Made by a program: the position numbers and the translations under genes. Under the pieces are notes generated by a model that saw nothing but the letters and a program-made list of their open reading frames with translations, ran no database searches and was not told the DNA's origin. From Chloroflexota bacterium (GTDB taxonomy: Bacteria; Chloroflexota; Ktedonobacteria; Ktedonobacterales; Ktedonobacteraceae), in assembly GCA_902810755.1 (NCBI GenBank), contig CADDYT010000008.1, positions 21,348 through 85,347 of the forward strand: a stretch of DNA of 64,000 nucleotides, in the 5' to 3' direction. Of the stretch, positions 2,087 through 54,000 are shown piece by piece; position 1 is the first letter of the stretch, and each line of letters opens with the position of its first letter.

Positions 2087-2849
2087 TTGCTGCAAGGACT
2101 TTGCTTCCCGCTCCTAAAGCAGTTGCGCGCCGTCCGCGCCTACGAGCCGCTGGTCTCGGTCATTATCCCCGCCTATAACGAGGAAGTCGGGCTGGTTGCC
2201 ACGCTCAAGACGGTGATTGCCAGCACGTATTCCCGCATGGAAGTGATTGTGGTCAACGATGGCTCCAGCGATGGCACGGAGCAGGAGATGCGCGGCTTTC
2301 TCTATAAGTACCACCTGTTCGACAACCGCTTTTTCACTGAAGATATGGAGATGTCGTTCAGGATACAGCAGGCGGGTATGCACGGAAGGGCCATCAACCA
2401 TTGCCGGGCTGATCAAGCAGCGCATCCGCTGGAATCGCGGGCGCATCGAGACGATTGTACACTATACGTCAGAGATCTTCAGCAAAGGGAGCAGGAACAG
2501 GCTCTTTTTCTGGTTTGTGGTGCCTCTAGTCTATCTGAGCGATCTGGTGGCGGTCCTGCGCGTTGTCCTCACCCTGCTGCTCTACATCTACTCGCTGGAA
2601 ATCGTCAACTACAGCTTTCTCTATGTCTTGATGGCGATGACCTCCTTCATTTACCTGCTCGTCTTCCTGAGCGATGACCACGAGCGCACCCCCGGCAACA
2701 TGGCGATTATTCCCCTGGTATACTTCCTCCTGCACCTCAGCACGCTCGTCGAGGTCTATACTCTGCTCACCGCGTACTGGACAATGCTAACCCGCCGTCA
2801 GGTCGGCTGGCAGAAATTGCAGAGGCGAGGGGTGGTAGATCATCAATGA
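2087..2849 (+). pseudogene. family 2 glycosyltransferase, internally deleted and frameshifted
   Basis: The first part encodes the N-terminal GT-A core of a processive family 2 glycosyltransferase (VSVIIPAYNEE, then VIVVNDGSSDGT). The sequence then jumps to a late motif (TEDMEMSFRIQQAG), so the middle of the catalytic domain, including the DxD region, is missing. Around 2366-2380 the reading shifts by one frame, and the new frame continues with the expected GLIKQRIRWNRGR motif (QxxRW type) and four to five hydrophobic membrane segments to the stop at 2847-2849. An internal deletion plus a frameshift means no active enzyme can be made. The intact parent would resemble PgaC/IcaA-type or hyaluronan-synthase-like enzymes. 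The 5' limit is uncertain because no good start is visible. Confidence 0.8.
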
Positions 2850-2902
2850 GGACAGGCTGCGCAATATGACATGGCGCAGCCTGTCCTCGTTGATGATCTA
2901 CC
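2834..2902. terminator. long inverted repeat between convergent genes
   Basis: Arms 2834-2862 and 2874-2902 are 29 bp each with one mismatch, separated by an 11-base loop. The left arm contains the stop codon of the glycosyltransferase pseudogene; the right arm ends 11 bp before the nitroreductase stop. It probably acts as a bidirectional terminator, although no clear U-tract follows on either strand. Confidence 0.7.
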
Positions 2903-2913
2903 CTTACTCAAGC

Positions 2914-3420
2914 TTACTCGAAGGGCTGTCCCCAGCGTTCGCTGTAGGCGACTTCGCTCAGGGGCTTGCGTTTCTTTTTGCCCTTGCCGACCGGCTGAGC
3001 CGGGTAGCCGAAGGGCAGGATGGCGAGAACGGAGACATCCTGGGGGATGCCCAGCAGAGAATTGACCTGCGGCAGGTTGTTGAAGCCAACCCAGTTGGAG
3101 CCGACGCCCTGCGACCACGCCGCCAGGATCATGTCCTGGATGGCACGACTGCCATCGGAGACGGCAAAACGGCTCTGATCCATCGCTACCACGATAGCCA
3201 GCGGGGCCTGCGCGATATAGCGACCGGTAGGCGCGAGCTGCCCGAGCTTCTGCAACGTCTCCTTATCCTGCACAACAATAAAGTGCCAGGGCTGCCCATT
3301 CTGACTGCTGGCGGTCAGGCGGCCTGCCTCGACAATGTCCCGCACAATCGACGCGGGGATCGGCGTATCTTTGAAACTGCGCACTGCCAGCACGGTGCGA
3401 ATCGTCTCAAGTGTATCCAT
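2914..3420 (-). CDS. nitroreductase family protein
   Basis: FMN-dependent NAD(P)H oxidoreductase of the nitroreductase superfamily, 168 residues, which is at the short end for the family. The N-terminal RSFKDTPI motif (phosphate contact of FMN), the ASSQNGQPWHF motif and the C-terminal GYPAQP segment are typical. Enzymes of this family reduce nitroaromatics, quinones or enones; the substrate cannot be told from sequence. ATG 3420 is preferred over GTG 3426 because an AGAGAG stretch lies 6-8 bases upstream. The gene is convergent with the broken glycosyltransferase and downstream of the molybdenum enzyme, with a palindromic terminator between them. Confidence 0.85.
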   Translation of the reverse strand: MDTLETIRTVLAVRSFKDTPIPASIVRDIVEAGRLTASSQNGQPWHFIVVQDKETLQKLGQLAPTGRYIAQAPLAIVVAMDQSRFAVSDGSRAIQDMILAAWSQGVGSNWVGFNNLPQVNSLLGIPQDVSVLAILPFGYPAQPVGKGKKKRKPLSEVAYSERWGQPFE

Positions 3421-3541
3421 GCACACTCTCTTTCTTGCTCTACGACTGGTAGAGAGAACCGACCGAGCTATATTAGCAACTTACAGATAGTAAGGCCTCT
3501 TCAAATAAGAGCATAAGATGGCGTGTATGGCAAGCTGAGGC

Positions 3542-3589
3542 ATGACAAAGGGAAGCCGACAGGCGCGCCTGTCGGCTTCCCTTTGTCAT
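3542..3589. terminator. 48-bp perfect palindrome, terminator of the molybdenum enzyme gene
   Basis: The two 24-bp half-sites are perfect reverse complements with no spacer, centred at 3565/3566. It lies 12 bp after the stop of the minus-strand gene ending at 3602 and upstream of the nitroreductase. A transcript from the minus strand would fold into a very long hairpin. The flanks are not strongly U-rich. Confidence 0.65.
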
Positions 3590-3601: not shown

Positions 3602-5902
3602 CTATGGGAGGGCTTCCAGTACCCTTTCAGGGGTCATGGGGATGTGTGTCAGGCGGGCGCCGGTGGCGTCGTGGATGGCATTGGCGATAGCGGCGGCGAC
3701 GGGGACGACAGGCGGCTCGCCGACGCCTCTGGCGCCGAAGGGGCCGAGGCCGGAAGGAACTTCGACCAACAGCGTGGCGATAGTGGGGATATCCTGGCTG
3801 TGAGGCAGGGCGTAGTCCATCAGGGTTGAGGTAAGCAACTGGCCATCTTCGTCGTAGGCCATGCCCTCGAAGAGCGCCCAGCCGATACCCTGAGTGACGC
3901 CGCCATGAATCTGGCCCTCTACTTCGGCGGGGTTGATGGCGCGGCCAACGTCCTGGGCGGCGACGTAGTCGAGGACGCGCACCTCGCCCGTTTCAGGGTC
4001 GACGGCCACCTTCGCCACATGGACGGCAAAGGCCGGTGAGGCGACGCGAATGGCCGAGCGCCCGCGCCCGAAGATCGGCTCGTAGGGCGCGCCGAAGTTC
4101 ATCGTATTGGCGGCGATCTGCTGCAAGGTGACATGCTTCTCAGGCACGCCTCTAACCATAATGCGACCGTCGCGCATCTCCATGTCGTCAGGTGAGGCTT
4201 CCAGCATGTCGGCGGCGATGCTGAAGAGCTGGTTGCGCGCATCCCGCGCCGCCGCCTGCACGGCAGCGCCGACCGTGTAGGTGGTTTTGCTGCCAGCAGA
4301 GAGGCCGCTATAGGGCATGGAGTCGGTGTTGTCGTGCGTGACGCTGATAGCCGAAGCGGGAAGGTTCAACTCTTCGGCGGCGATCAGGGCCATCGAGGTA
4401 TCGGAGCCGGAGACATCGACGCTGCCGACAACGACGGTGAAGCTGCCGTCGCGCTCCATACGGCAGAGGGCGGCTGCCGGTTCCGTGCCACCGCCCCAGC
4501 CCCCGGCAGCGAGGCCGATACCGACTTTCCAGCCCTTGAGTTCTTCCGGCACCACCTGTTTCTCCTGCTCGCGCCGCGCCCACAGGGGGTGCCGCTCGAT
4601 CTGCGCCAGACATTCCTGGATGCCGATACGCGGCCAGCGCGCGCGGAAGAGATTCGGGTCGCCCTCTCTAACGACGTTGAGGCGGCGGAACTGCAACGGG
4701 TCAACGCCGATTTGCTGGCAGAGTTCCTGCACCGTCGATTCGAGGGCGAAGAATGCCTGGGGGCCAAAGGGGGCGCGGTAGGCTCCTGTGCCGGGTTTGT
4801 TGGTCTCCACCACATAGCAGCGCGCGCTGACATTGGGGCAGCGATAGAGGGCGGCGAAATGGAAGCCGCTGAGACCCGCGAGCATATTGGGGTAGGCTCC
4901 CGAATCGAGGATAATCCTGGTCTGGATGGCGGTGAGCGTGCCATCGCGCTTCGCCCCCAGTTTGACGGTGATGATCGCCTGCGGGGCGGGATTACCGGCC
5001 AGCAGGTCTTCCTGGCGGGTGTAGGTCAGGCGCACGGGCCGATGCAGGCGCGCGGCTATCGTCGCGGTCAGCGGCTCCAGCAAGGTCTCTTTGCCGCCAA
5101 AGCCGCCGCCGATGGGAACCGGCTCGACATGAATCTGCCGCTCCGACAGATCGAGCGCGCGGGCCACTGCCGAGCGCACATTGAAGAGCCCCTGCGTGCT
5201 TGACCAGACGAAGAGGCCAGAGGGGCCGGGCGAGACCGTCACCGTGTGTGGCTCCATGTAGGACTGGTGAACGGGTTGCGTGCGATAGCTGCGCTCGACC
5301 ACCACCTCGGCCTCGCGCAGCCCGGCCTCGATATCGCCCATGTTCAACGGCACCGTCTGAATCATGTTCTGGGAAAGCTCCTCTTGCTCGACCGGCGCGC
5401 CATGTTGAGCGAAGGCGGGGAGAAAATTTTCTCCACTGCTCGGCGGGCGGTACAGGCGCGCCCCCGGCCCGCCTGGCCGCATAGCCGCCTCGGGATCGAT
5501 GACGGCGGCCAGCGGCTCGTAATCGATCTCCACTGCGTCGGCCCCATCTTTTGCGCTGGCCTCTGTCTCGCCGACCACGACCGCGACGGGCTGCCCGCAC
5601 CACACCGCTTCTTCCTGCGCCAGAGGAGACTGCGCACGCGAAGCCGATCCAGCCTGGCTCATGCCCAGCGTCTCGGCGGTAAAGACGGCTACCACGCCCG
5701 GCAGGGAGAGCGCAGCCGCCGGATCAATACGTAAAATACGCGCGTGGGCATACGGGCTGAGAATCAGGCGGGCATAGAGCATGCCCGGCACTACCTGATC
5801 CCCCGCGTAACGCGCCTGCCCGGTCACTTTATCAAAGCCATCCACGCGGGGCAAAGATGTGCCGACGCGCGCGAATTGCTCCTGTTGTGTTCCCTGTACC
5901 AT
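3602..5902 (-). CDS. xanthine dehydrogenase family molybdopterin-binding subunit
   Basis: Large (molybdenum) subunit of the xanthine oxidase family, 766 residues, the usual length for a stand-alone CoxL/XdhA/NdhL-type chain. An N-terminal aldehyde-oxidase a/b-hammerhead domain begins after RVDGFDKVTGQARYAGD. The cofactor-binding motif GGGFGGKE and the GTGAYRAPFG segment follow, and near the C-terminus GARGVGEPP carries the catalytic base Glu, about residue 729. These enzymes hydroxylate N-heterocycles, aldehydes or CO; the variant cannot be assigned. ATG 5902 is chosen because GAAGGAAGG lies just upstream. The partner FAD and 2Fe-2S subunits are not in this window, so they must be encoded elsewhere, unless the gene is an orphan. 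It follows the phosphorylase-like gene by 49 bp. Confidence 0.9.
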   Translation of the reverse strand: MVQGTQQEQFARVGTSLPRVDGFDKVTGQARYAGDQVVPGMLYARLILSPYAHARILRIDPAAALSLPGVVAVFTAETLGMSQAGSASRAQSPLAQEEAVWCGQPVAVVVGETEASAKDGADAVEIDYEPLAAVIDPEAAMRPGGPGARLYRPPSSGENFLPAFAQHGAPVEQEELSQNMIQTVPLNMGDIEAGLREAEVVVERSYRTQPVHQSYMEPHTVTVSPGPSGLFVWSSTQGLFNVRSAVARALDLSERQIHVEPVPIGGGFGGKETLLEPLTATIAARLHRPVRLTYTRQEDLLAGNPAPQAIITVKLGAKRDGTLTAIQTRIILDSGAYPNMLAGLSGFHFAALYRCPNVSARCYVVETNKPGTGAYRAPFGPQAFFALESTVQELCQQIGVDPLQFRRLNVVREGDPNLFRARWPRIGIQECLAQIERHPLWARREQEKQVVPEELKGWKVGIGLAAGGWGGGTEPAAALCRMERDGSFTVVVGSVDVSGSDTSMALIAAEELNLPASAISVTHDNTDSMPYSGLSAGSKTTYTVGAAVQAAARDARNQLFSIAADMLEASPDDMEMRDGRIMVRGVPEKHVTLQQIAANTMNFGAPYEPIFGRGRSAIRVASPAFAVHVAKVAVDPETGEVRVLDYVAAQDVGRAINPAEVEGQIHGGVTQGIGWALFEGMAYDEDGQLLTSTLMDYALPHSQDIPTIATLLVEVPSGLGPFGARGVGEPPVVPVAAAIANAIHDATGARLTHIPMTPERVLEALP

Positions 5903-23964: not shown

Positions 23965-24038
23965 CGCCTGTTTCCTCTCGACAGGCGACTTCCGTTATGG
24001 TACACTGCTCTTAGAATGTTTGTGTGGAGCGTATGTGT

Positions 24039-25061
24039 ATGTCGACCCCGTATGATGAGAGTTTTAAGACGCTGATCCGAGATGATCCGTTAGCCTTTAT
24101 CCATCTGATGTTTCCCGGCGCGCAGCTGGTGCGGCAGTTGCGGGAGAAACTGAAAGAATGGAAGCTGGAGGTGGATGCCCTTTTTGAAATTACGCTGGAA
24201 AGCGGAATCCCGATCCTGGTGCATTACGAGTTCCAGACCTACAATGATCCAGAAATGGCGAAACGGCTCTTGCGCTATAATGTGCTGATCTGGAGCGAGT
24301 ACAATCTGCCGGTCTGTTCCTGTGTCATCCATGTGCTGGGCGATGGTCACTTACCCACCTCACCCTTTCAGCTCGAAATTGACCCGACCAGACCGATCTT
24401 CCGCTTTCACTTTGACGTTCTCGAATTAGGGGAGCTATCCCCCGAAGAGCTGATGCAAACGGGTCAACCCAACCTGTTTCCGCTCCTGCCCTTTACCAGA
24501 GGCGGAGCCAGCCGTGAGGTGGTTGAGACCGTTTTTGAAGAACTGGTGCAAAGCGGCAAAACCAACTTACTCTCCGTCGCCCAGACGCTGGCTTCCCTGG
24601 CTTTCGGGCGGGCAAAGAATGATACCGATCAGGAATGGCTTCTCAGGAGGTACAGGCAAATGTTTGATATTATCAAAGATACTCCTGTTTACAGGGAGAT
24701 GGTGCGCGATGCTCGTGAAGAGGGATGGGAGAAAGGGTTGAAAGAGGGACGGGAGGAAGGGTTGAAAGAGGGACTGGAAAAGGGACTGGAAAAGGGACTG
24801 GAAAAGGGACTGGAAAAGGGGATCGAGGAGGGGCGCAAGCAGGGTCAAGTAGAGGCATTAGAGCAGACTTTGATAGATCTCATTGCTGATCGCTTTCCCA
24901 GACTGGTTCGCTTTGCGAGAAGACAGCTTTCAGACGTTGATGATCCAGCCCTTTTGCGCCTGCTGGTTCTTAAGCTCAGTACCGCTCAGACGGCGGAGGA
25001 AGCGCGGGAACAACTGCTGACCATCATAGAAGAAGCTGACGAAGAGCAGGGCGAGCAATAG
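24039..25061 (+). CDS. Rpn-type PD-(D/E)XK nuclease / transposase-like protein
   Basis: A 340-residue protein of the recombination-promoting-nuclease family (PDDEXK transposase-like, DUF4351-like C-terminus). The nuclease core shows Asp46 (KLEVDALFEI) and the HYEFQT motif with Glu64 and Gln66. The C-terminal part has a repeated Lys/Glu/Gly coiled segment built of GLEKG units, then a helical tail (LIADRFPRLVRFARRQL). Rpn proteins cut DNA and are often transferred or phase-variable. ATG 24039 has GGAG nine bases upstream; GTG 24024 and ATG 24033 are alternatives. It is flanked downstream by a hairpin terminator and has no transposase partner. Confidence 0.85.
   Translation: MSTPYDESFKTLIRDDPLAFIHLMFPGAQLVRQLREKLKEWKLEVDALFEITLESGIPILVHYEFQTYNDPEMAKRLLRYNVLIWSEYNLPVCSCVIHVLGDGHLPTSPFQLEIDPTRPIFRFHFDVLELGELSPEELMQTGQPNLFPLLPFTRGGASREVVETVFEELVQSGKTNLLSVAQTLASLAFGRAKNDTDQEWLLRRYRQMFDIIKDTPVYREMVRDAREEGWEKGLKEGREEGLKEGLEKGLEKGLEKGLEKGIEEGRKQGQVEALEQTLIDLIADRFPRLVRFARRQLSDVDDPALLRLLVLKLSTAQTAEEAREQLLTIIEEADEEQGEQ
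24771..24818 (+). repeat. four perfect 12-bp tandem repeats inside the Rpn-type gene
   Basis: The unit GGACTGGAAAAG occurs four times back to back and encodes Gly-Leu-Glu-Lys each time. Degenerate units lie on both sides (24735-24770 and 24819-24835). Being a multiple of three, copy-number change would lengthen or shorten the linker without a frameshift. Confidence 0.9.
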
Positions 25062-25222: not shown

Positions 25223-26605
25223 ATGTTTGCTATGGCAAGCCAGGTAGAAACCTATATTCGCGAACACGAGGATCGCTTTCTGGAAGATCTGAAGGGGTGG
25301 CTGCGCATTCCGAGCATCAGCACGCTGCCGGAGCATGTGGGCGACGTGCAGCAGGCTGCCGAATATGCCGCCGACCAGTTGCGGCGCATCGGCTTCGAGC
25401 AGGTGCAGGTGATACCAACGAAGGGACACCCGCTCGTCTATGGCGAATGGCTCAAGGCGCCGGGCAAGCCGACGCTGCTCATTTACGGGCATTACGATGT
25501 GCAGCCCGTTGACCCCCTCGATCTGTGGGAGTCGCCGCCGTTCGAGCCGACGATTCGCGGAGGCAACCTCTATGCGCGCGGCGCTGCCGATGACAAGGGG
25601 CAGACGATGCTCGTTTTCAAGGCGCTGGAATCGTTAATGACCGTCAACGGCAGGCTGCCCGTCAACGTGCGCGTGCTGATCGAGGGAGAGGAGGAGGCCG
25701 GCGGCGAGTCCATCGAGCAGTACGTGCGCGCCTACCCCGAACGCCTGCGCTGCGACGCCGCCTTCATCTGCGATACCGGCATGCCTTCGCCGGAACTGCC
25801 CGCGCTAGTCTACGGATTGCGCGGCATTGTCTACACGGAGGTCGAGGCGCGCGGGGCAAAGCGAGACCTGCATTCGGGGATGTACGGCGGGGTCGCGCCC
25901 AACCCGCTGCACGCGCTCGCGCTCATCATTGCCGGGCTGAAGGATGCCGAAGGGCATATTCATATCCCCGGCCTCTATGACCACGTGCGCAAGCCGACGG
26001 CGGAGGAAGAAGCCTTCTGGCGGGAGGATCCGCTGCACACGGAAGAGGCATTGCTGGAAGAGATGGGCGTGCCGCAACTGGTGGGCGAGAACGAGTACCC
26101 GGCCCTGGAGCGACTGGGCGCGCGCCCGACACTGGAAGTTCACGGCATCGTCGGCGGCTTCACGGGCGAGGGGGCCAAGACCGTCATTCCCGCCGAGGCA
26201 AAGGCCAAGATCAGCCTGCGCCTGCCCCCGGATGTAACCTCGGAGGAAGCGTTCGCGCTCTTTGAGCGGCGCGTGCATGAACTGGCCCCGCCGGGAGTGC
26301 AGATCACGGTGCGCAACATTCACGGCGGCGAGTCGGTGCTGGTGCCGGTGGATACCGCGCCCATGCGCGCCGCCGCTGCTGCCCTGCAAGAGGTCTACGG
26401 CAGAGAGCCGGTCTTCCTGCGCGAAGGCGGCTCCATTCCCATCGCCGCCCTCTTCTATACCGTGCTGAACGTCCCCGTCGTCATGATGGGCTTCGGCCTG
26501 CCCGACGACAACCTGCACGCCCCCAACGAGAAATATTCCATCTCGCAATTTTATAAGGGCATTCGCACGGTCGCCAGCTTCTTGCAGCGGTTGGGACAGG
26601 AGTAG
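25223..26605 (+). CDS. M20 family dipeptidase/peptidase
   Basis: Zinc-dependent exopeptidase of clan MH, 460 residues. Metal ligands are recognisable: His90 and the catalytic-motif Asp92 in IYGHYDVQP, bridging Asp123 in ARGAADDKG, and the general base and ligand pair in IEGEEEAGG (Glu156/Glu157 region). The dimerisation domain is inserted around residues 210-330. Family members (CNDP-like, PepV-like) hydrolyse dipeptides or acyl-amino acids in the cytoplasm; there is no signal peptide. The stop is followed after 3 bp by a second M20 gene, so the two form an operon and could make a heterodimer or act on different peptides. Confidence 0.92.
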   Translation: MFAMASQVETYIREHEDRFLEDLKGWLRIPSISTLPEHVGDVQQAAEYAADQLRRIGFEQVQVIPTKGHPLVYGEWLKAPGKPTLLIYGHYDVQPVDPLDLWESPPFEPTIRGGNLYARGAADDKGQTMLVFKALESLMTVNGRLPVNVRVLIEGEEEAGGESIEQYVRAYPERLRCDAAFICDTGMPSPELPALVYGLRGIVYTEVEARGAKRDLHSGMYGGVAPNPLHALALIIAGLKDAEGHIHIPGLYDHVRKPTAEEEAFWREDPLHTEEALLEEMGVPQLVGENEYPALERLGARPTLEVHGIVGGFTGEGAKTVIPAEAKAKISLRLPPDVTSEEAFALFERRVHELAPPGVQITVRNIHGGESVLVPVDTAPMRAAAAALQEVYGREPVFLREGGSIPIAALFYTVLNVPVVMMGFGLPDDNLHAPNEKYSISQFYKGIRTVASFLQRLGQE

Positions 26606-26608
26606 AGC

Positions 26609-27979
26609 ATGGCAGAAACTAACGTAAACACCTATCTTGAAACGCATCCTGACGAGGCGCAGGCCCTGCTGGAGCAATTGACGCGGCAGCCGAGCGTGGC
26701 GGCGCAGGGGCTGGGCATGGCGGAGATGGCCGACCTGGTGGAGCGGCTGCTGCAAGAGACGGGTTTCTCCACGCAGAGACTGCATGCCGAGGGCGCGCCA
26801 ACGGCCATCTACGGCGAACTGCGCGGGCGCAGTCCCTACACCGTGCTGCTCTACAACCATTACGATGTGCAGCCTGCCGAGCCGCTGGAGTTGTGGAATA
26901 CGCCGCCGTTCGAGCCGACGGTGCGCGAGGGCAAGCTTTTTGCGCGCGGCTCCGCCGACAACAAGGGGGAGATTTCCGCCCGTTTAGCCGCCATTCGCGC
27001 GCTGCTCGCAACTGAGGGCGAACTGCCGATCACGCTGCGCTGGATTATCGAGGGTGAGGAGGAGGTGGGCAGCCCGCATTTCGCGGCCATCGCCGAGCAG
27101 TACGCGCCATTGCTCCAGGCCGATGCCTGTTTCTGGGAGGGCGCGCATTTCGGCCCCACCGGTCGCCCGGAATTGCTGCTCGGCACCAAGGGGCTGCTCT
27201 ACGTGCAGCTTGACGTGGAGGGCGCGGGTATCGATGCCCATTCCGGTTCGGCCCCCATCCTGCCTGCCCCGGCATGGCGGCTCGTGCATGCGCTGGCCTC
27301 GCTCAAGACACCGGAGGGGCGTGTCCTCATTCCCGGCTTCTATGATGACGTGCTGCCGCCCTCGGAGCAGCAACTGGCGGCCATCGCCGACCAGCCCGAC
27401 ATGGATGCCGAACTGCGCGAAGCCTACCGGGTCGATGCCTTCGTCGATAATCTCTCCGGCGCGGCCCTGCGCGAGCGGCTGATGTTCACCCCCACCTGCA
27501 ATATCGCCGGTCTGCTCAGCGGCTACACCGGCTCCGGCGTCAAAACCGTGCTGCCAGCAAAAGCGATGGCGAAGATCGATTTCCGCCTCGTCCCCAACCA
27601 GGAGCCGCAGGATATCGCGGCCAAATTGCGCGCCTACCTGGATGCGCAGGGCTACAGCGATGTCCGCCTCAGCGTCCTCGGCGGCGCGCCGCCCGTCGTG
27701 ACGCCGATGGAGGAGCCGATTGTGCAGCGCGTGAAAGAGATCGCGCAGGAGTATAGCGGACAGAGGCCGGTCATCAACCCCATCGCGGGCGGGACATTGC
27801 CCCTGCTGGGGGCGCTGCGCCGCTTTGTCGGCGTTCCCGGCCTCGCCGTCCCCGGCAACCCGACCTACTGGGCCAACGGCGCCCACGCCCCCAACGAGCA
27901 TATCCGCCTCGGCGATCTGCAGCAGGCCGTGCGCTTCAACTGCTACCTGTTCTCTTCTCTGGAAGAGGGGATGAAATAA
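26609..27979 (+). CDS. second M20 family peptidase
   Basis: Paralogue of the preceding gene, 456 residues, same architecture. Ligands are His84 and Asp86 in YNHYDVQP, Asp117 in RGSADNKG, and Glu150/Glu151 in IEGEEEVGS. The C-terminal ligand His lies in NGAHAPNE. GGACAGGAG overlaps the end of the upstream gene and serves as ribosome-binding site. The last five codons and the stop (Glu-Glu-Gly-Met-Lys-stop) lie inside a 92-bp perfect palindrome, and the convergent tryptophan dioxygenase gene ends with exactly the same six codons. Confidence 0.92.
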   Translation: MAETNVNTYLETHPDEAQALLEQLTRQPSVAAQGLGMAEMADLVERLLQETGFSTQRLHAEGAPTAIYGELRGRSPYTVLLYNHYDVQPAEPLELWNTPPFEPTVREGKLFARGSADNKGEISARLAAIRALLATEGELPITLRWIIEGEEEVGSPHFAAIAEQYAPLLQADACFWEGAHFGPTGRPELLLGTKGLLYVQLDVEGAGIDAHSGSAPILPAPAWRLVHALASLKTPEGRVLIPGFYDDVLPPSEQQLAAIADQPDMDAELREAYRVDAFVDNLSGAALRERLMFTPTCNIAGLLSGYTGSGVKTVLPAKAMAKIDFRLVPNQEPQDIAAKLRAYLDAQGYSDVRLSVLGGAPPVVTPMEEPIVQRVKEIAQEYSGQRPVINPIAGGTLPLLGALRRFVGVPGLAVPGNPTYWANGAHAPNEHIRLGDLQQAVRFNCYLFSSLEEGMK

Positions 27980-28053
27980 AAGGAAACCGGCATATGGCCC
28001 GCGTTCGCGAACGCGGGCCATATGCCGGTTTCCTTTTATTTCATCCCCTCTTC
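27962..28053. repeat. 92-bp perfect palindrome spanning both 3' gene ends
   Basis: Centred at 28007/28008, with 46-bp half-sites and no spacer or mismatch. It includes the last 18 bases of the peptidase gene and the last 18 bases of the tryptophan dioxygenase gene on the other strand. A transcript from either side would form a 46-bp hairpin. It probably terminates both genes. Confidence 0.95.
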
Positions 28054-28752
28054 GTCCGCTATCTTTGTGAGCTGGTTGCGTACTTCCCAGAGGTCGGGGT
28101 AGAAGCAATCGTTGAGGGTACGCTCAAGCACCTGCATGGGAGTGCCGCCGGTGCCGGTCGAGCCGGGGCCGATCATCCGCCTCGCCAGCTTGATGTGCTG
28201 GTCGCGGAAAATCTGGAAAATTTCGTCGTAGTCGGTGAGAGCCTCGGCAAAGGCGAGCAGGAGCGGGTAGCGGTCGGCGTGGATGTAGATATCGATGAGC
28301 GAAACCTGCTCGTGTGCCAGCACGGCGCAAAAATCGTCCCACAGCAGGGGCGAAAGGGTCATCAGGGCGTGGAAGCCGGGCGAATCGGTGCCGGCGCCAT
28401 CGCCGAGGACCAGGCGGAAGCCATGAAAGTCCCAGGGAGACATCGTTTCCAGCATGCGCATATTGTCCAGCATCAGGTGCTGGATTTTGATAACGCGCTG
28501 CATCAGCCGCGTGGCGTTGAGCAGGTCGAAGCGTTGGAGCAACGCGCGAATGGTGCGCAGTTCAAAGGCCGCTTCCTTCCACCACAACTCAAATACCTGA
28601 TGGACGACCTGAAACTGCAATTCATCGTGGTGCGCCAGTTGCTCTTCCGGCTTCTGGAGCGAGAGCAATTCTTCCGTGCGCAGATATTTCTCGTAGGTGC
28701 TTTCTCCGGGAGCGTGCCGCCGTGTCCTGTGCGGCGTCATATTCTTGACCAT
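28036..28752 (-). CDS. kynA: tryptophan 2,3-dioxygenase
   Basis: Heme dioxygenase of 238 residues that opens the indole ring of L-tryptophan to N-formylkynurenine, the first step of the kynurenine pathway. The motif HHDELQFQVVHQVFELWWKE carries the substrate-site His of the family, the heme-ligand His is expected in DQHIKLARRMIG, and GSTGTGG is the substrate-binding loop. The length is slightly short compared with about 280-residue homologues. ATG 28752 is chosen for the GAGAGGG about 11 bases upstream; ATG 28740 or an upstream GTG are alternatives. No kynureninase or formamidase gene is nearby. The extreme C-terminus is encoded by the 92-bp palindrome. Confidence 0.92.
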   Translation of the reverse strand: MVKNMTPHRTRRHAPGESTYEKYLRTEELLSLQKPEEQLAHHDELQFQVVHQVFELWWKEAAFELRTIRALLQRFDLLNATRLMQRVIKIQHLMLDNMRMLETMSPWDFHGFRLVLGDGAGTDSPGFHALMTLSPLLWDDFCAVLAHEQVSLIDIYIHADRYPLLLAFAEALTDYDEIFQIFRDQHIKLARRMIGPGSTGTGGTPMQVLERTLNDCFYPDLWEVRNQLTKIADEEGMK

Positions 28753-28815
28753 CGTAGTTTTCCCTCTCTGGAATGCTGCCAGAGGCGTCATTGCCACGTA
28801 ACCGGAACGCATTAC

Positions 28816-30468: not shown

Positions 30469-30494
30469 AAGGGATGGGTTTGCTCCCATCCCTT
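30469..30494. other. 10-bp hairpin in the leader of the epimerase gene
   Basis: Arms 30469-30478 and 30485-30494 pair perfectly around a 6-base loop, 52 bp upstream of ATG 30547. It could be a 5' UTR stabiliser or the terminator of a transcript arriving from upstream; no U-tract follows. Confidence 0.4.
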
Positions 30495-30546
30495 GTCTAT
30501 TGATGCACTAACAGGATACGCTGGAAAAGTGGAGGAAATATCGTCT

Positions 30547-31587
30547 ATGCGCGTGCTGATTACCGGGGCCACCGGCTTGCTCGGCGGACACCTGATTCGA
30601 GCGTTGCAGGAGCGAGGGGAGCAGATTCGCGCCCTGGTGCTGCCTGTAGAAAACGCGGATAAGCTGATTGAGCAGGGCGTGGAGGTGGTGCGGGGGGATA
30701 TTACGGATGCCAGTACGCTTGGCCCTGCCGTGAAAGATGTCGAGTTAATTTTTCATCTTGCCGGCATGATGGGCGTCTGGCGCCCGCTGGCCGATTACCG
30801 GCTGGTCAATGTGACCGGCACGGAAAATCTCTATAAGGCGGCGCAGGCTGCCGGGGTGCGCCGCTTCGTGCATACCAGCTCCCATACCGTCTACGGCCTC
30901 GGTCATGGCCGCTTCATGGTGGAGGAAGACCCGCTGAAGCCCGACCCCGACCCGTACAGCATCACGAAGGCCGAAGGCGACCGCATGATGCGGCGACTGA
31001 TGATCGATAGCAACGTGGAGACGGTTATTTTGCGTCCCGGCACCTTCTTTGGCCCCGGCGACCGCCTGCACTTCGGACGCATGGCACAGAAGATGAAGGA
31101 TGGGAAGGGCCTGATTATCGGTAAGGGCGATAACGCGCTGCCCTTCTGCTATGTGACCGACGTGGTGCAGGGCTTCATGCTGGCCGCCTACCATGAGAAC
31201 GCGCCCGGCAACGTCTATAACATCACCAACGACCGCCCGCTGACACAGCAGGAGATGTTCGATGCCATCGCCGATGCCGTCGGCGGCAAGCGGCCCACAC
31301 TGCACCTGCCCTACCTGCCCATCTACTACGGCAGCATTGTCGCGGAGAAGGTGGTGGCTCCCCTGACACGCACAAAGCCCATTGTGACGCAGTTGGGCGC
31401 GCTCATGTTTGGCAGCGACAACCGGCACAGCGTCGAGAAGGCGCGGCGCGAACTGGGCTACGAACCGAAAGTAGACCTGCGCGAAGGTATTTTGCTGGCG
31501 GCTGAATGGTTCAACGCCGGCGGCATGGATCAGCCTTCCGTCACCCAGGCCAGCCAGAACGCTCCCCTGGCCGGTGCGAGAAGGTAA
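30547..31587 (+). CDS. NAD-dependent epimerase/dehydratase (3-beta-HSD-like SDR)
   Basis: Extended short-chain dehydrogenase of 346 residues. The nucleotide-binding motif TGATGLLGGHL is at the N-terminus. The catalytic Ser-Tyr-Lys set appears as TSSHTVYG and YSITK, and the RPGTFFGPGDR loop closes the substrate pocket. The similarity is to sterol/hopanoid and dihydroflavonol reductase-like SDRs rather than to UDP-sugar epimerases. The product is unknown. ATG 30547 is preferred over the upstream in-frame start because GGAGG lies about 10 bases before it and the Rossmann motif begins directly after. The stop abuts a 62-bp palindrome. Confidence 0.88.
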   Translation: MRVLITGATGLLGGHLIRALQERGEQIRALVLPVENADKLIEQGVEVVRGDITDASTLGPAVKDVELIFHLAGMMGVWRPLADYRLVNVTGTENLYKAAQAAGVRRFVHTSSHTVYGLGHGRFMVEEDPLKPDPDPYSITKAEGDRMMRRLMIDSNVETVILRPGTFFGPGDRLHFGRMAQKMKDGKGLIIGKGDNALPFCYVTDVVQGFMLAAYHENAPGNVYNITNDRPLTQQEMFDAIADAVGGKRPTLHLPYLPIYYGSIVAEKVVAPLTRTKPIVTQLGALMFGSDNRHSVEKARRELGYEPKVDLREGILLAAEWFNAGGMDQPSVTQASQNAPLAGARR

Positions 31588-31649
31588 GAATAAGCGAGCA
31601 AGCAGAGGAGCCAGCCCGCGGGCTGGCTCCTCTGCTTGCTCGCTTATTC
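31588..31649. terminator. 62-bp perfect palindrome at the convergent 3' ends
   Basis: 31-bp half-sites without spacer or mismatch, centred at 31618/31619. The left edge directly follows the TAA of the epimerase gene, and the right arm contains the last codon and stop of the minus-strand zinc-ribbon gene. It is likely a bidirectional terminator. Confidence 0.8.
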
Positions 31650-31919
31650 AGACATAGTCGAAACTTTTTTCCCCGCCGCTTTGAATCCGAACTTCCTGAT
31701 GGTGCTGCGCAGCCAGGGCGCGGTGGGGCCATCGTCGATACGCTTGCTGGTCTCGACCAGGAAGGGCGCTGTATCCGGTTTGGGCTTCAACTGGTTGGCC
31801 TGCCGCAGCGACGCCAGTTCCTCGTAATGCTGGAAGGCCCAGTACAGGTTGACGCGGCATCCCTTACAGTTTTTTGCATCGTCCTCATTTGCTGTTCCAC
31901 ATTGCGGACACTCTGTCAT
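31644..31919 (-). CDS. small zinc-ribbon protein
   Basis: A 91-residue protein beginning MTECPQCGTANEDDAKNCKGCRVNLYWAF. The four cysteines in a CPxC-x11-CxxC pattern form a zinc ribbon. The rest is charged and helical with a basic C-terminus (RSTIRKFGFKAAGKK). Proteins of this kind are usually adaptor or nucleic-acid-contacting modules. ATG 31919 has CAGGA six bases upstream and begins right at the ribbon; the in-frame start at 31937 is less likely. It is 26 bp after the response regulator stop and probably co-transcribed with it. Confidence 0.75.
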   Translation of the reverse strand: MTECPQCGTANEDDAKNCKGCRVNLYWAFQHYEELASLRQANQLKPKPDTAPFLVETSKRIDDGPTAPWLRSTIRKFGFKAAGKKVSTMSE

Positions 31920-31945
31920 ACATTTCCTGCCTTTCATTCACTATC

Positions 31946-51160: not shown

Positions 51161-51491
51161 CGTCACCATCTCCCGTTCAATTTAGCGAGTCCTACGTGTC
51201 TGTTTCACTATATCAGATTTTCCCGCTAACAGCAATGATGAGCGGGTTGTAGGCTCTCTATCCTTCGGGGGGAACCTGGAGGGACAGGGCCGGGCCGACC
51301 AGAGCAGTTGATGACATGTCCGGGCCTACTTTACAATAGCCAGCCATAACCAGCTATTTTTGCCTGTGTTATACTCTGCAAAAGGTACCTGCTACGATAG
51401 CAGGGGCAAGGATGGTAGGGCAGCGCGGGGTGGGTTCTCGCGGTTGCCCTGCTAGCTGGATAGAGTATTGTCTGAGAAGAGGGCTGAAGCC
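51161..51491. other. divergent intergenic region between gcvT and dhaR, 331 bp
   Basis: It holds the gcvT promoter and, on the plus strand, a TATACT box (51370-51375) about 115 bp before dhaR. A degenerate stem (about 51416-51452, GGGCAGCGCGGG with CGCGGTTGCCC) resembles REP-type hairpins. No gene is visible. Confidence 0.4.
51207..51235 (-). promoter_or_regulatory. sigma-70 promoter of gcvT
   Basis: TTGCTG (51230-51235) and TATAGT (51207-51212) on the minus strand with a 17-bp spacer, giving a start about 40 bases before gcvT. A 6-bp stem (51222-51227 with 51241-51246) overlaps the spacer. Confidence 0.6.
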
Positions 51492-53621
51492 ATGCAAGGT
51501 ATGACACATGATTACTGGGCGGCCTGGAAGCAGTTTGTGCTGCATGGTGTTATGCAGGAGGATGTGCTGCCCCCGGCATTGATGCAATCGTGGCGGCGCT
51601 GCGCGGCGCTTGGCCTCGACCCGTACAGCGATCGCGGGCTGGATGATGATTCTCGGGTAGGGTCTGCTGGTGTTTCCAACGGGTCAGGTGGTCCGATGAT
51701 TTCTGGTGTTTCTCATGAGCTGCTTTCGCTGGTGAGACCGGCGCTGGAGGATTTGCACCAGTTTATTGAAGGGTCGGCTTCTGTAGTGGTCTTTGCCGAC
51801 GCAGGAGTGCGCGTTGTCGATCTATTTGGTGACCGGGAGTTGCAAGGGGAACTTGAGCATTTAGGGTTGGTGGTGGGAGCCTCGTGGCGTGAGGAGCACC
51901 AGGGGTCGAATGCGCTGGCCCTGGCGTTGCAGGAGTCGTTTCCCATGCAGCTTGATGGTGCCATGCATTATCGTGCTGCCCTGCACGCCCTCTACACGGC
52001 TGCCGCACCCGTGCATGATTTGATGGGACACGCCGTTGGCGTGCTGGCGGTGGTTGGTCGGCATGAGGACTGCCACCCGCATACGCTGGGGATGATCGCG
52101 GCGGCGGCGCAGGCGATGAGTAACCAGTTGCAGATGCAGGTCTGGCTGAGCAATGCCAATGATCTTTTGTCTGAACTGAAAGTCATCCTGCAAACGCTGC
52201 CGGAGGGCATCCTGTTGTTGCGACGCGATGGCGTGATTTCACAGATGAATGCCCCCGCCGGTACCATGCTGGGACTCGCGCCCGCGAAGGTGACGGGGAG
52301 ACGGCTGCGCGATGTGTTGCCGGTTCCCACGCTGCTGCTGGAGGCGCTGGCCGCGCAGCAACAACTCACAGACGAGGAAATTATCTTTGACACAGTGCAT
52401 GGGCGTGTCACCTGCCTGTGTTCGCTCAAACCCATTTCGAGTTACCGGCCAGAGACGGGGCTGGAGAATATCGTTGGTTCCAGCGGCATCGTACTCGCGG
52501 AGCCGGTCGCGCCGGATGGCTTTGTGATGATCTTGCGCAGCATCGAGCGCGTGCAGAAGCTGGTCAATCGCATCACCGGCGCTCGCGCTCGCCTGACCTT
52601 TGCCCACGTGGTAGGCGAGAGCGCGGCGTTGATGGAAGCACTGCGACTGGCGCGGCTGGCGGCGAAAAGCAATTCGACTGTGCTGCTGCAAGGTGAGACT
52701 GGGACGGGGAAGGAGATTTTCGCACAGAGCATCCATAACGGCAGTGCGCGGTCGGATGGGCCGTTTGTGGCTGTCAACTGTGCGGCCATTCCCCGCGAGT
52801 TGATCAGCACCGAACTCTTCGGCTACGAGGGCGGCTCGTTCACCGGCGCAGACCGGCAGGGGCGGTCCGGGAAGTTTGAGCAGGCGCATGGCGGCACGCT
52901 CTTTCTGGATGAGATCGGTGACATGCCGCTTGAATTGCAAGCCACGCTGCTGCGTGCCATCGAAACGCGCACGATTGTGCGTATCGGCGGCCAGCGCGTC
53001 ATCCCCGCCGATGTGCGCATCATCGTTGCCACGCATAGAGAACTGCGCGAGGAGGTGCAGCGCGGCACCTTCCGCTCCGACCTCTTCTACCGCTTAAATG
53101 TGCTGACTATTCACATTCCCCCGCTGCGCGAACGCAGCGATGATTTGCCTCTGCTGGTGCAGTATTTCCTGCGCCGTCAGAGCCGCATGCTGGGCCGTTC
53201 GTTCGCCATCACCCCGGAGGCGCTGGCGGCGATGCAGCACTATTCCTGGCCCGGCAACGTGCGCGAGCTTGAGAATATACTTGAACGCGTCACCTACCTG
53301 ATGCCGAAAAACACCATCACCCTCGACGACCTTCCCATCGAGTTTCAATCACCTGTTACCCGTCCTGAGCTTGAGCAATCCGTTTCCTCACCCTCGATTC
53401 AATTCTCACCTGCTGACCATTTCAGGCACAGCGTACCCGAAGCGGTAAGCGAGCAGACCAGAGCTTTGCGGGAGCAGAGCACCAATGCCGAGATACAGGC
53501 CATTGTGCAGGCACTGCACGCCAGTAACGATCACATGGCGCAGGCGGCAGCGCTGCTCGGTATCAGCCGCACCACCCTCTGGCGCAAGATGGTGAGATAT
53601 GGTCTAAACGAAGGGAAATAG
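51492..53621 (+). CDS. dhaR: DhaR-like sigma-54-dependent transcriptional activator
   Basis: Enhancer-binding protein of 709 residues. The order is an N-terminal GAF-like sensor (about 70-220), a PAS domain (about 230-330), the AAA+ domain with Walker A GETGTGKE, the sigma-54 contact loop GSFTGA (usually GAFTGA), Walker B GTLFLDEIGDM, and a C-terminal Fis-type helix-turn-helix (MAQAAALLGISRTTLWRKM). This is the architecture of DhaR/AcoR. It lies just upstream of glpF-dhaKLM, whose promoter region has a -24/-12 element, so DhaR is the best name. ATG 51492 has AGAGGG ten bases upstream; the TTG at 51468 is less likely. Confidence 0.88.
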   Translation: MQGMTHDYWAAWKQFVLHGVMQEDVLPPALMQSWRRCAALGLDPYSDRGLDDDSRVGSAGVSNGSGGPMISGVSHELLSLVRPALEDLHQFIEGSASVVVFADAGVRVVDLFGDRELQGELEHLGLVVGASWREEHQGSNALALALQESFPMQLDGAMHYRAALHALYTAAAPVHDLMGHAVGVLAVVGRHEDCHPHTLGMIAAAAQAMSNQLQMQVWLSNANDLLSELKVILQTLPEGILLLRRDGVISQMNAPAGTMLGLAPAKVTGRRLRDVLPVPTLLLEALAAQQQLTDEEIIFDTVHGRVTCLCSLKPISSYRPETGLENIVGSSGIVLAEPVAPDGFVMILRSIERVQKLVNRITGARARLTFAHVVGESAALMEALRLARLAAKSNSTVLLQGETGTGKEIFAQSIHNGSARSDGPFVAVNCAAIPRELISTELFGYEGGSFTGADRQGRSGKFEQAHGGTLFLDEIGDMPLELQATLLRAIETRTIVRIGGQRVIPADVRIIVATHRELREEVQRGTFRSDLFYRLNVLTIHIPPLRERSDDLPLLVQYFLRRQSRMLGRSFAITPEALAAMQHYSWPGNVRELENILERVTYLMPKNTITLDDLPIEFQSPVTRPELEQSVSSPSIQFSPADHFRHSVPEAVSEQTRALREQSTNAEIQAIVQALHASNDHMAQAAALLGISRTTLWRKMVRYGLNEGK

Positions 53622-53694
53622 CAGTTACGTTGCGAAAGTGAAACGTATTGTTGCAATAATGCAACAATACGTTTCACTTTCGCAACGTAACTGC
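53621..53694. promoter_or_regulatory. 35-bp-arm inverted repeat: dhaR terminator and possible activator site
   Basis: Perfect arms 53621-53655 and 53660-53694 with a 4-base loop. The left arm begins with the last base of the dhaR stop codon. The inner part (TTGTTGCA-ATAA-TGCAACAA) looks like a dyad operator for a Fis-type HTH dimer. It lies about 120-190 bp upstream of the -24/-12 promoter, a normal distance for a sigma-54 enhancer. Confidence 0.7.
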
Positions 53695-54000
53695 TCTACT
53701 GCCCGGCAGGTTTTTTTCTTTCATTTTTCAGCATTAGAAATTTCTCTCGCGCCTCTTCGCAGGCTGTTTTACATCTCTTTGTTATCCGCTGTTTCTTTCC
53801 CCGGCTCAGGTTTGGCATGATTCTTGCCCCTTAGTGAAGCAGGACTCATTTGATCGCCGAGTCTTCAGTCAGTTTGCGAAAGGAGGTGAGAGAAGTATCC
53901 GCACATCCCTTTACCATCGGGTCATCTGGTTTTTTTGCGTTGAACATTGCTTTCGCATGCGAAAGGAGGATGTCTGCCGGAGCTGGCAGACGAGAATGAT
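53695..54000. other. leader region of the dha operon
   Basis: Between the inverted repeat and glpF are the -24/-12 promoter, a Shine-Dalgarno-perfect AAAGGAGGTG at 53879-53888 with no proper start codon at the right distance, and a 16-bp palindrome (53950-53965). A small hairpin follows (GTCTGCC 53972-53978 with GGCAGAC 53985-53991), close to the glpF start. The latter two could affect glpF translation. Confidence 0.4.
53813..53827 (+). promoter_or_regulatory. sigma-54 (-24/-12) promoter of the glpF-dha-pts operon
   Basis: TGGCATGATTCTTGC matches the RpoN consensus TGGCAC-N5-TTGC at all key positions, with GG at 53814-53815 and GC at 53826-53827, exactly 10 bp apart. It is about 175 bp before glpF and downstream of the gene for a sigma-54 activator. 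Confidence 0.82.

Follow-up and report, generated by a model that had tools for sequence, protein, structure and literature searches.

A perfect 92-bp palindrome holding the ends of two convergent genes in Ktedonobacteria, and its probable making by template switching at a terminator hairpin

In the window, by which is meant the whole stretch of 64,000 nucleotides analysed, a metallopeptidase gene and a tryptophan dioxygenase gene on opposite strands converge on a perfect palindrome, and 18 nt of each, five codons and the stop, lie inside it. The features concerned are these.

26609..27979, + strand: M20 family metallopeptidase gene (Peptidase_M20, E=1.2e-28); last 18 nt in the left arm; putative recipient of a copied tail
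28036..28812, - strand: tryptophan 2,3-dioxygenase (TDO) family gene (Trp_dioxygenase, E=2.5e-33); last 18 nt in the right arm; putative tail donor
27962..28053, no strand: perfect palindrome of 92 bp with zero spacer and 46-nt arms
27962..27979, + strand: putative copied tail, the closing five codons of M20 with its stop, the same as the TDO tail of the opposite strand
28036..28053, - strand: TDO tail, its last five codons and stop, in the right arm
27984..28031, no strand: terminator-like core, with a GC-rich stem and a T-rich run behind it on both strands; a bidirectional intrinsic terminator by prediction

The original prediction had described both the perfect palindrome and the sharing of the C-terminus EEGMK by two proteins, and both are confirmed: the arms (27962-28007 and 28008-28053) are 100% complementary with 0 nt in between, and the open reading frames give SSLEEGMK as the end of M20 and IADEEGMK as that of TDO. 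The longest perfect zero-spacer palindromes in the window are of 92, 62 and 48 bp, below which there is a background of 16 bp, and as base composition leads to an expectation of about 10^-22 for perfect zero-spacer arms of at least 46 nt in 64 kb, a chance origin of the 92-bp palindrome is excluded. Two further observations concern the genes themselves. The TDO reading frame as listed begins 20 codons ahead of its nearest homologue, P0001 (28752-28812), and translation probably starts instead from residue 21, an internal ATG. M20 peptidase genes stand in tandem, at 25223-26605 and 26609-27979, and it is the second of them that has the apparently rewritten tail.

What might such a structure do at the RNA level? 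Between the convergent genes, 27984-28031 has a GC-rich stem and then a T run when read on either strand, and of the seven terminator-like sites in the 1-kb region (0.8 in shuffles), six are this core. The palindrome as RNA folds very stably (-90.1 kcal/mol, z -13.1), and between 27800 and 28200 there were 0 matches to Rfam families at gathering score. The hairpin is thus a predicted bidirectional terminator, at which transcription from both sides would be expected to end. It was not inherited with the gene pair: a convergent M20/TDO pair is present also in Ktedonobacter racemifer (G002), Ktedonobacter sp. (G003), G005 and K. robiniae (G006), so that conserved synteny was considered as an explanation, and rejected, since the pairs of G002, G003 and G006 have other hairpins and that of G005 has no long one. 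A search of plasmid records yielded only two short, partial matches.

Which gene supplied the shared tail? Among the 120 TDO homologues listed, of 776 passing the E-value threshold, 105 end in [DN]E.G[LM][KR] and 89 in exactly EQGLK or EQGLR, though none in exactly EEGMK, while 0 of the 120 M20 homologues listed, of 7990 passing, end in EEGMK. The nearest three M20 homologues listed, 94% identical, end in CYLFSSLAQ where the window protein has CYLFSSLEEGMK. Because TDO homologues have similar ends and M20 homologues do not end in EEGMK, TDO appears to be of the donor type and the M20 tail to have been replaced, the change being approximately from SSLAQ to SSLEEGMK. This assignment derives from homologous protein sequences rather than from orthologous DNA; where organism names accompany the homologues of either protein they are Ktedonobacteraceae, Ktedonobacter or unspecified Chloroflexota. 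The comparison of C-termini that had been proposed as a check therefore supports the earlier suggestion that one gene end was copied in inverted orientation over the other at a terminator hairpin, M20 having apparently lost its native tail and TDO having kept one of native type. The simplest version of that suggestion needs amendment, as the TDO tail too seems to have changed. Between TDO and its nearest homologue (99% identical) there are 3 differences in 238 aligned residues, of which two are in the five palindromic codons (window EEGMK, homologue EQGLK), a clustering with a Fisher p of 0.001.

The 92-bp palindrome is not alone in the window, where three more perfect inverted repeats, with arms of 24-36 nt, and a near-perfect one lie at gene 3' ends.

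31588..31649, no strand: perfect palindrome of 62 bp (31-nt arms, spacer 0), directly 3' of the epimerase stop and including the end of the zinc-ribbon ORF
30493-31587, + strand: epimerase gene, its stop directly adjoining the 62-bp palindrome
31644-31937, - strand: zinc-ribbon ORF, its last codon and stop (GAA TAA) within the 62-bp palindrome
3542..3589, no strand: perfect palindrome of 48 bp (24-nt arms, spacer 0), 12 bp after a minus-strand stop (CTA, 3602-3604) that was read by eye
53620..53695, no strand: perfect inverted repeat with 36-nt arms and a 4-nt spacer, overlapping the stop codon of the sigma-54-type regulator gene
51468-53621, + strand: sigma-54-type regulator gene, its stop overlapped by the preceding repeat
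2834..2902, no strand: near-perfect inverted repeat with 29-nt arms, an 11-nt spacer and 1 mismatch, 11 bp after the nitroreductase stop
2914-3426, - strand: nitroreductase gene, with the preceding repeat beyond its stop

A more tolerant scan of the window placed 7/7 inverted repeats at gene 3' ends, a count in which the stop beside 3542-3589 was read by eye and the zinc-ribbon ORF taken from the list of reading frames, the home-made codon-usage script that called the genes having missed both that ORF and the gene beside 3542-3589. Directly after the repeat at the sigma-54-type regulator gene comes a second, independent GC hairpin that is terminator-like and has a T run (window 53620-53730), so that the repeat may not itself be the terminator there. 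Elsewhere in the window, the reading frame at 24024-25061 combines a weak match to Rpn/YhgA-like nucleases with a long KGLEKGLEKGLE repeat.

How widespread such repeats are was assessed as the number of perfect inverted repeats with arms of at least 18 nt and spacers of at most 12 nt per 100 kb. The values are 23.8 for K. racemifer, 21.2 for K. robiniae, 19.0 for G003, 18.3 for G035, 7.9 for G031 and 6.2 for the window, as against 0 in 200 kb of E. coli K-12, 0 in 100 kb of G042 and 0 in the samples of 10 to 60 kb from each of the Thermogemmatispora genomes G007-G011. At least one was present in 14 of the 31 genomes of the class that were sampled, several of the samples being short; sample size ranged from 6 to 400 kb per genome, and zeros from the short ones mean little. 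As random control a single first-order Markov sequence was made per set, and none of the nine contained a repeat even at an arm of 13. By extrapolation from the samples, perfect palindromes at gene ends would number in the hundreds to thousands per genome.

Their position is far from random. In seven sequence sets a repeat was found at 67 of 174 convergent gene junctions, while tandem junctions had one in 114 of 700 cases and divergent ones in 24 of 167 (convergent against the rest, p=2e-10), and at convergent junctions 73 of 140 outer arm edges fall between 10 bases short of the gene end and 5 inside it; some inverted repeats are far from any called stop. Seven convergent repeats, two of which are one locus in two species, take the stop codons of both genes into their arms, and 7/7 reach as far into one gene as into the other (3/3, 3/3, 3/3, 14/14, 10/10, 9/9 and 18/18 nt). 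The last of these is the window palindrome. The window palindrome is accordingly better seen as one of a class, which the original prediction had not reported, than as a singular event; it is the deepest of the seven two-gene examples, and the notion of inverted copying is kept.

Perfect zero-spacer palindromes are a known type of chimera, and that is what speaks for a fold-back artefact of assembly or amplification at the window locus. We regard this as very unlikely, as genomes assembled independently of one another have repeats of this class at gene ends too, orthologous ones in different species among them, as the window itself has further long inverted repeats at gene ends, and as the EEGMK copy is in frame and terminated by a stop for both genes.

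Could the hairpin instead have been brought in by a mobile palindromic element of MITE or REP type? Repeated families do account for a minority of the long repeats (14 of 76 in G003, 9 of 22 in G031), and for a few of the G003 repeats the orthologous K. robiniae site is nearly empty. Such families, for example one with GATTCTTCGCTGCGCTCAGAATGACA in G031 (L117-L130) and one with GACGCTACTAAAGTACGCGTCTACATAT in G003 (L057-L076), look REP- or MITE-like and distinct from the unique gene-end palindromes. However, none of the window arms (4/4) has a second copy within the 64 kb, in place of the dispersed copies that an element would have; 24 of the 25 convergent repeats of G003 are unique within 400 kb, so these are not one mobile family; and tail codons of TDO are not what an insertion would be expected to bring as cargo. 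A mobile origin for the window palindrome seems to us barely credible. Two compositional features of the G003 sample (L057-L076) may be recorded here: the left arms are G-rich and C-poor (0.36 vs 0.17), and the commonest spacer is exactly 3 nt (24 of 76).

The most informative evidence comes from orthologous repeats. Along most of the 400 kb set side by side, G003 and K. robiniae show synteny, with a median identity of 96.5%, and K. racemifer, about 95% identical to both, served as outgroup. Over 68 orthologous repeats and 1838 arm pairs, 61 pairs differ by mirrored changes that preserve complementarity, where about 1.0 is expected, 27 by a change in one arm, and 0 by changes in both that leave them unpaired; an offset of 1 or 2 positions between the partners leaves no more than 3 to 8 co-changing pairs. 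One comparison with K. racemifer (52 loci) gave 73 mirrored, 28 single and 1 unpaired, with 7 to 10 for offset partners, and the other (61 loci) gave 75, 43 and 3, with 8 to 13, the three comparisons having genomes in common and so not being independent. These pair counts exclude repeats whose partner is absent or different. Of 93 G003 repeats set against the K. robiniae segment, 9 have no repeat there, 11 are matched by a different repeat and for 5 no anchor was found; unanchored repeats numbered 3/76 in one comparison and 5/93, 12/93 and 15/108 in three others. Within G003, stem mismatches are rare (38 of 2677 pairs).

Is selection on the RNA enough to account for this, a needed bidirectional terminator having its pairing maintained by ordinary compensatory mutations? 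Hairpins are indeed commonest at convergent junctions, the window hairpin is terminator-like on both strands, and single-arm changes between G003 and K. robiniae are mainly transitions (25 of 27), as if G-U pairs were tolerated. But mirrored changes outnumber single ones in 3/3 comparisons, and many are transversions: 25 of 61 between G003 and K. robiniae, 29 of 73 and 25 of 75 in the comparisons with K. racemifer. In the first of these comparisons just 2 of the 27 single-arm changes are transversions (p=0.002 against the mirrored), and a G-U intermediate cannot yield mirrored transversions. The spacers tell against it as well. Counting those of equal length that are not self-complementary, 15 of 40 are exactly inverted between G003 and K. 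robiniae (19 are the same and 6 otherwise different), 4 of 23 between G003 and K. racemifer (10 the same, 9 other) and 9 of 29 between K. robiniae and K. racemifer (13 the same, 7 other). Inverted spacers are thus fewer than unchanged ones in both comparisons with K. racemifer, while between the two species that are 96.5% identical they have been flipped almost as often as kept, 15 vs 19, and for such inversion there is no RNA rationale. Pairing, moreover, reaches into coding triplets. At one locus a leucine codon at a gene end is TTG in K. racemifer and CTG in K. robiniae, and the opposite arm is altered to match. Spacer flips and mirrored transversions speak against RNA selection as the sole cause, and we consider that it is unlikely to suffice.

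Growth of palindromes can also be followed, and with K. racemifer as outgroup it was polarised at two loci. At the first, 16 bp gained in K. robiniae alone are the reverse complement of the other side and take the arm from 28 to 38 nt; at the second, a right-hand base change found only in K. robiniae copies the left flank, the arm going from 29 to 32 nt, and the spacer is flipped too. A locus where the spacer is 0 in K. robiniae and 11 in G003 was considered as a possible case of spacer closure and rejected, K. racemifer having a centre of the K. robiniae type; loss of symmetry in G003 is more likely there.

A second tail copy is visible at the DNA level, in isolate genomes. The first gene of a convergent pair ends in FLQKE in G003, FLKRV in K. 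racemifer and FLQKASKSV in K. robiniae, and its neighbour in GDPKSV in G003 and GDTKSV in both of the others, in each case followed by the stop. The K. robiniae palindrome there, with 37-nt arms, includes the last 14 nt of both genes; that of K. racemifer, with 38-nt arms, has the same core and a copy of KSV-stop that follows closely on the stop of the first gene itself; the hairpin of G003 is another one. As the copy is present in K. racemifer it predates K. robiniae, in whose lineage the first gene would then have adopted it as its own tail.

Both mirrored arm changes and spacer inversion, then, are found at orthologous Ktedonobacter repeats, and homogenised arms together with inverted spacers are the described signature of template switching, which argues for that process. 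The further mark, an inverted copy of neighbouring DNA that overwrites or is inserted, is seen in K. robiniae in the 16-bp gain and the tail copy, and at the window locus in the protein comparison. With arm mirroring, spacer flips and growth in related genomes and a second tail copy in DNA, the template switching of the original prediction is supported. We consider it likely that these palindromes are built, lengthened and kept homogeneous by template switching at terminator hairpins, and that this process copied the TDO end over that of M20 at the window locus; by analogy with the Ktedonobacter loci it would have acted in the window too, and a replicative switch would seem the agent in preference to another form of conversion between arms. 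The starting point would be a bidirectional terminator-like hairpin between convergent genes, the terminator behind TDO. During replication the nascent strand would fold back, or hop to the opposite strand, at that hairpin, and one arm would then be copied into the other, with perfect pairing restored. The same copying may flip the spacer, and it may overrun the stem into flanking DNA and so extend the palindrome outward, sometimes into codons. In the window, the 3' end of TDO (five codons, the stop and the terminator arm) would in this way have been copied over the 3' end of M20.

Several points do not fit easily. Donor and copy have both changed (EEGMK vs EQGLK), so either two further substitutions or a more complex event is needed. 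A simple snap-back leaves a loop, and a zero spacer needs a self-complementary loop, later closure or a hop between strands. There are also the minority of repeated families (14 of 76 in G003) and the repeats far from called stops. Selection for terminators probably decides which palindromes survive.

Why are some genomes rich in these palindromes and others poor? With the curated SbcD model TIGR00619, 8 of 14 control genomes score above the cut-off, and of the 47 class members one does, a Thermogemmatispora whose sample had no long repeat. Loss of SbcCD as the cause was set aside, no correlation with palindrome density being seen; weaker SbcD-like and SbcC-like matches occur in palindrome-rich and palindrome-poor genomes alike. 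Loss of exonuclease VII fares no better, as 45 of the 47 class members have its large subunit above the cut-off. Rpn nuclease was likewise set aside: 17 of the 47 have matches at E <= 0.001, and the palindrome-rich K. racemifer, G003 and K. robiniae have none. Matches to SbcD, exonuclease VII and Rpn thus fail to separate the two kinds of genome. As a tentative proposal, for which the chances seem to us somewhat short of even, some Ktedonobacteria may have an unusually active process for making palindromes at gene ends, perhaps due to a lineage-specific change in replication or hairpin processing, that goes on making bidirectional terminators from scratch and holds them perfect by arm conversion; C-termini would be rewritten as a side effect, and convergent neighbours would come to share tails and stops.

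The work suggests how perfect bidirectional terminators originate and remain perfect, and offers a route by which a gene may gain a new C-terminus from its neighbour. It also raises the question of how these bacteria cope with palindromes that have no spacer and measure up to 92 bp. By comparing strains, one could measure how arms are converted, spacers flip and palindromes grow.

Bidirectional, X-shaped, intrinsic terminators occur between convergent genes, and ordinarily their stem is shorter, encloses a loop and does not reach the stop codons. The window hairpin resembles them in its location and in having a stem and a T run on both strands, features that in its case are read from sequence, and differs in that its stem is longer, has no loop and includes the stop codons.

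In yeast genes, according to excerpts of PMC8604942, template switching homogenises the arms of inverted repeats and inverts their spacers, which is quasipalindrome correction. As in those excerpts, the arms here are identical, spacers are inverted and coding changes span several residues, up to five neighbouring amino acids in yeast and five codons in the window. Unlike the short repeats described there, the perfect arms here reach 46 bp, are at gene 3' ends and are dense in some genomes, and the product is a C-terminus and stop shared by two convergent genes. Template switching can also create and repair the stems of RNA hairpins, as extracts from PMC8794818 have it, and perfect stems from one event with pairing maintained by copying at the DNA level are common to both; that account is of RNA genes, whereas the hairpins here are intergenic, that of the window being terminator-like, and a number of them run into the ends of protein-coding genes. 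Mitochondrial genes of Nematomorpha have coding palindromes (PMC6649704), likewise long perfect inverted repeats in coding DNA; in the sections of that paper considered, they are inside genes and both arms encode conserved protein, in contrast to the window palindrome, which joins two gene ends on opposite strands and appears to have replaced one tail. Repeats near terminators have an excess of substitutions in their spacers (PMC13155455, section 12), and on the evidence of that section spacer flipping could be a contributor to the excess. By a word search of their main text, three inverted-repeat surveys make no mention of Ktedono* (PMC13155455, PMC4060949 and PMC10434271), the Ktedonobacter inverted repeats in the relevant portion of PMC13289182 are large terminal ones, and no report of the present class of palindrome was found in the accessible parts of the open-licence literature on Ktedonobacter palindromes or inverted repeats. 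The process, then, was already known, and what look new are its intensity in these genomes and the rewriting of C-termini that goes with it.
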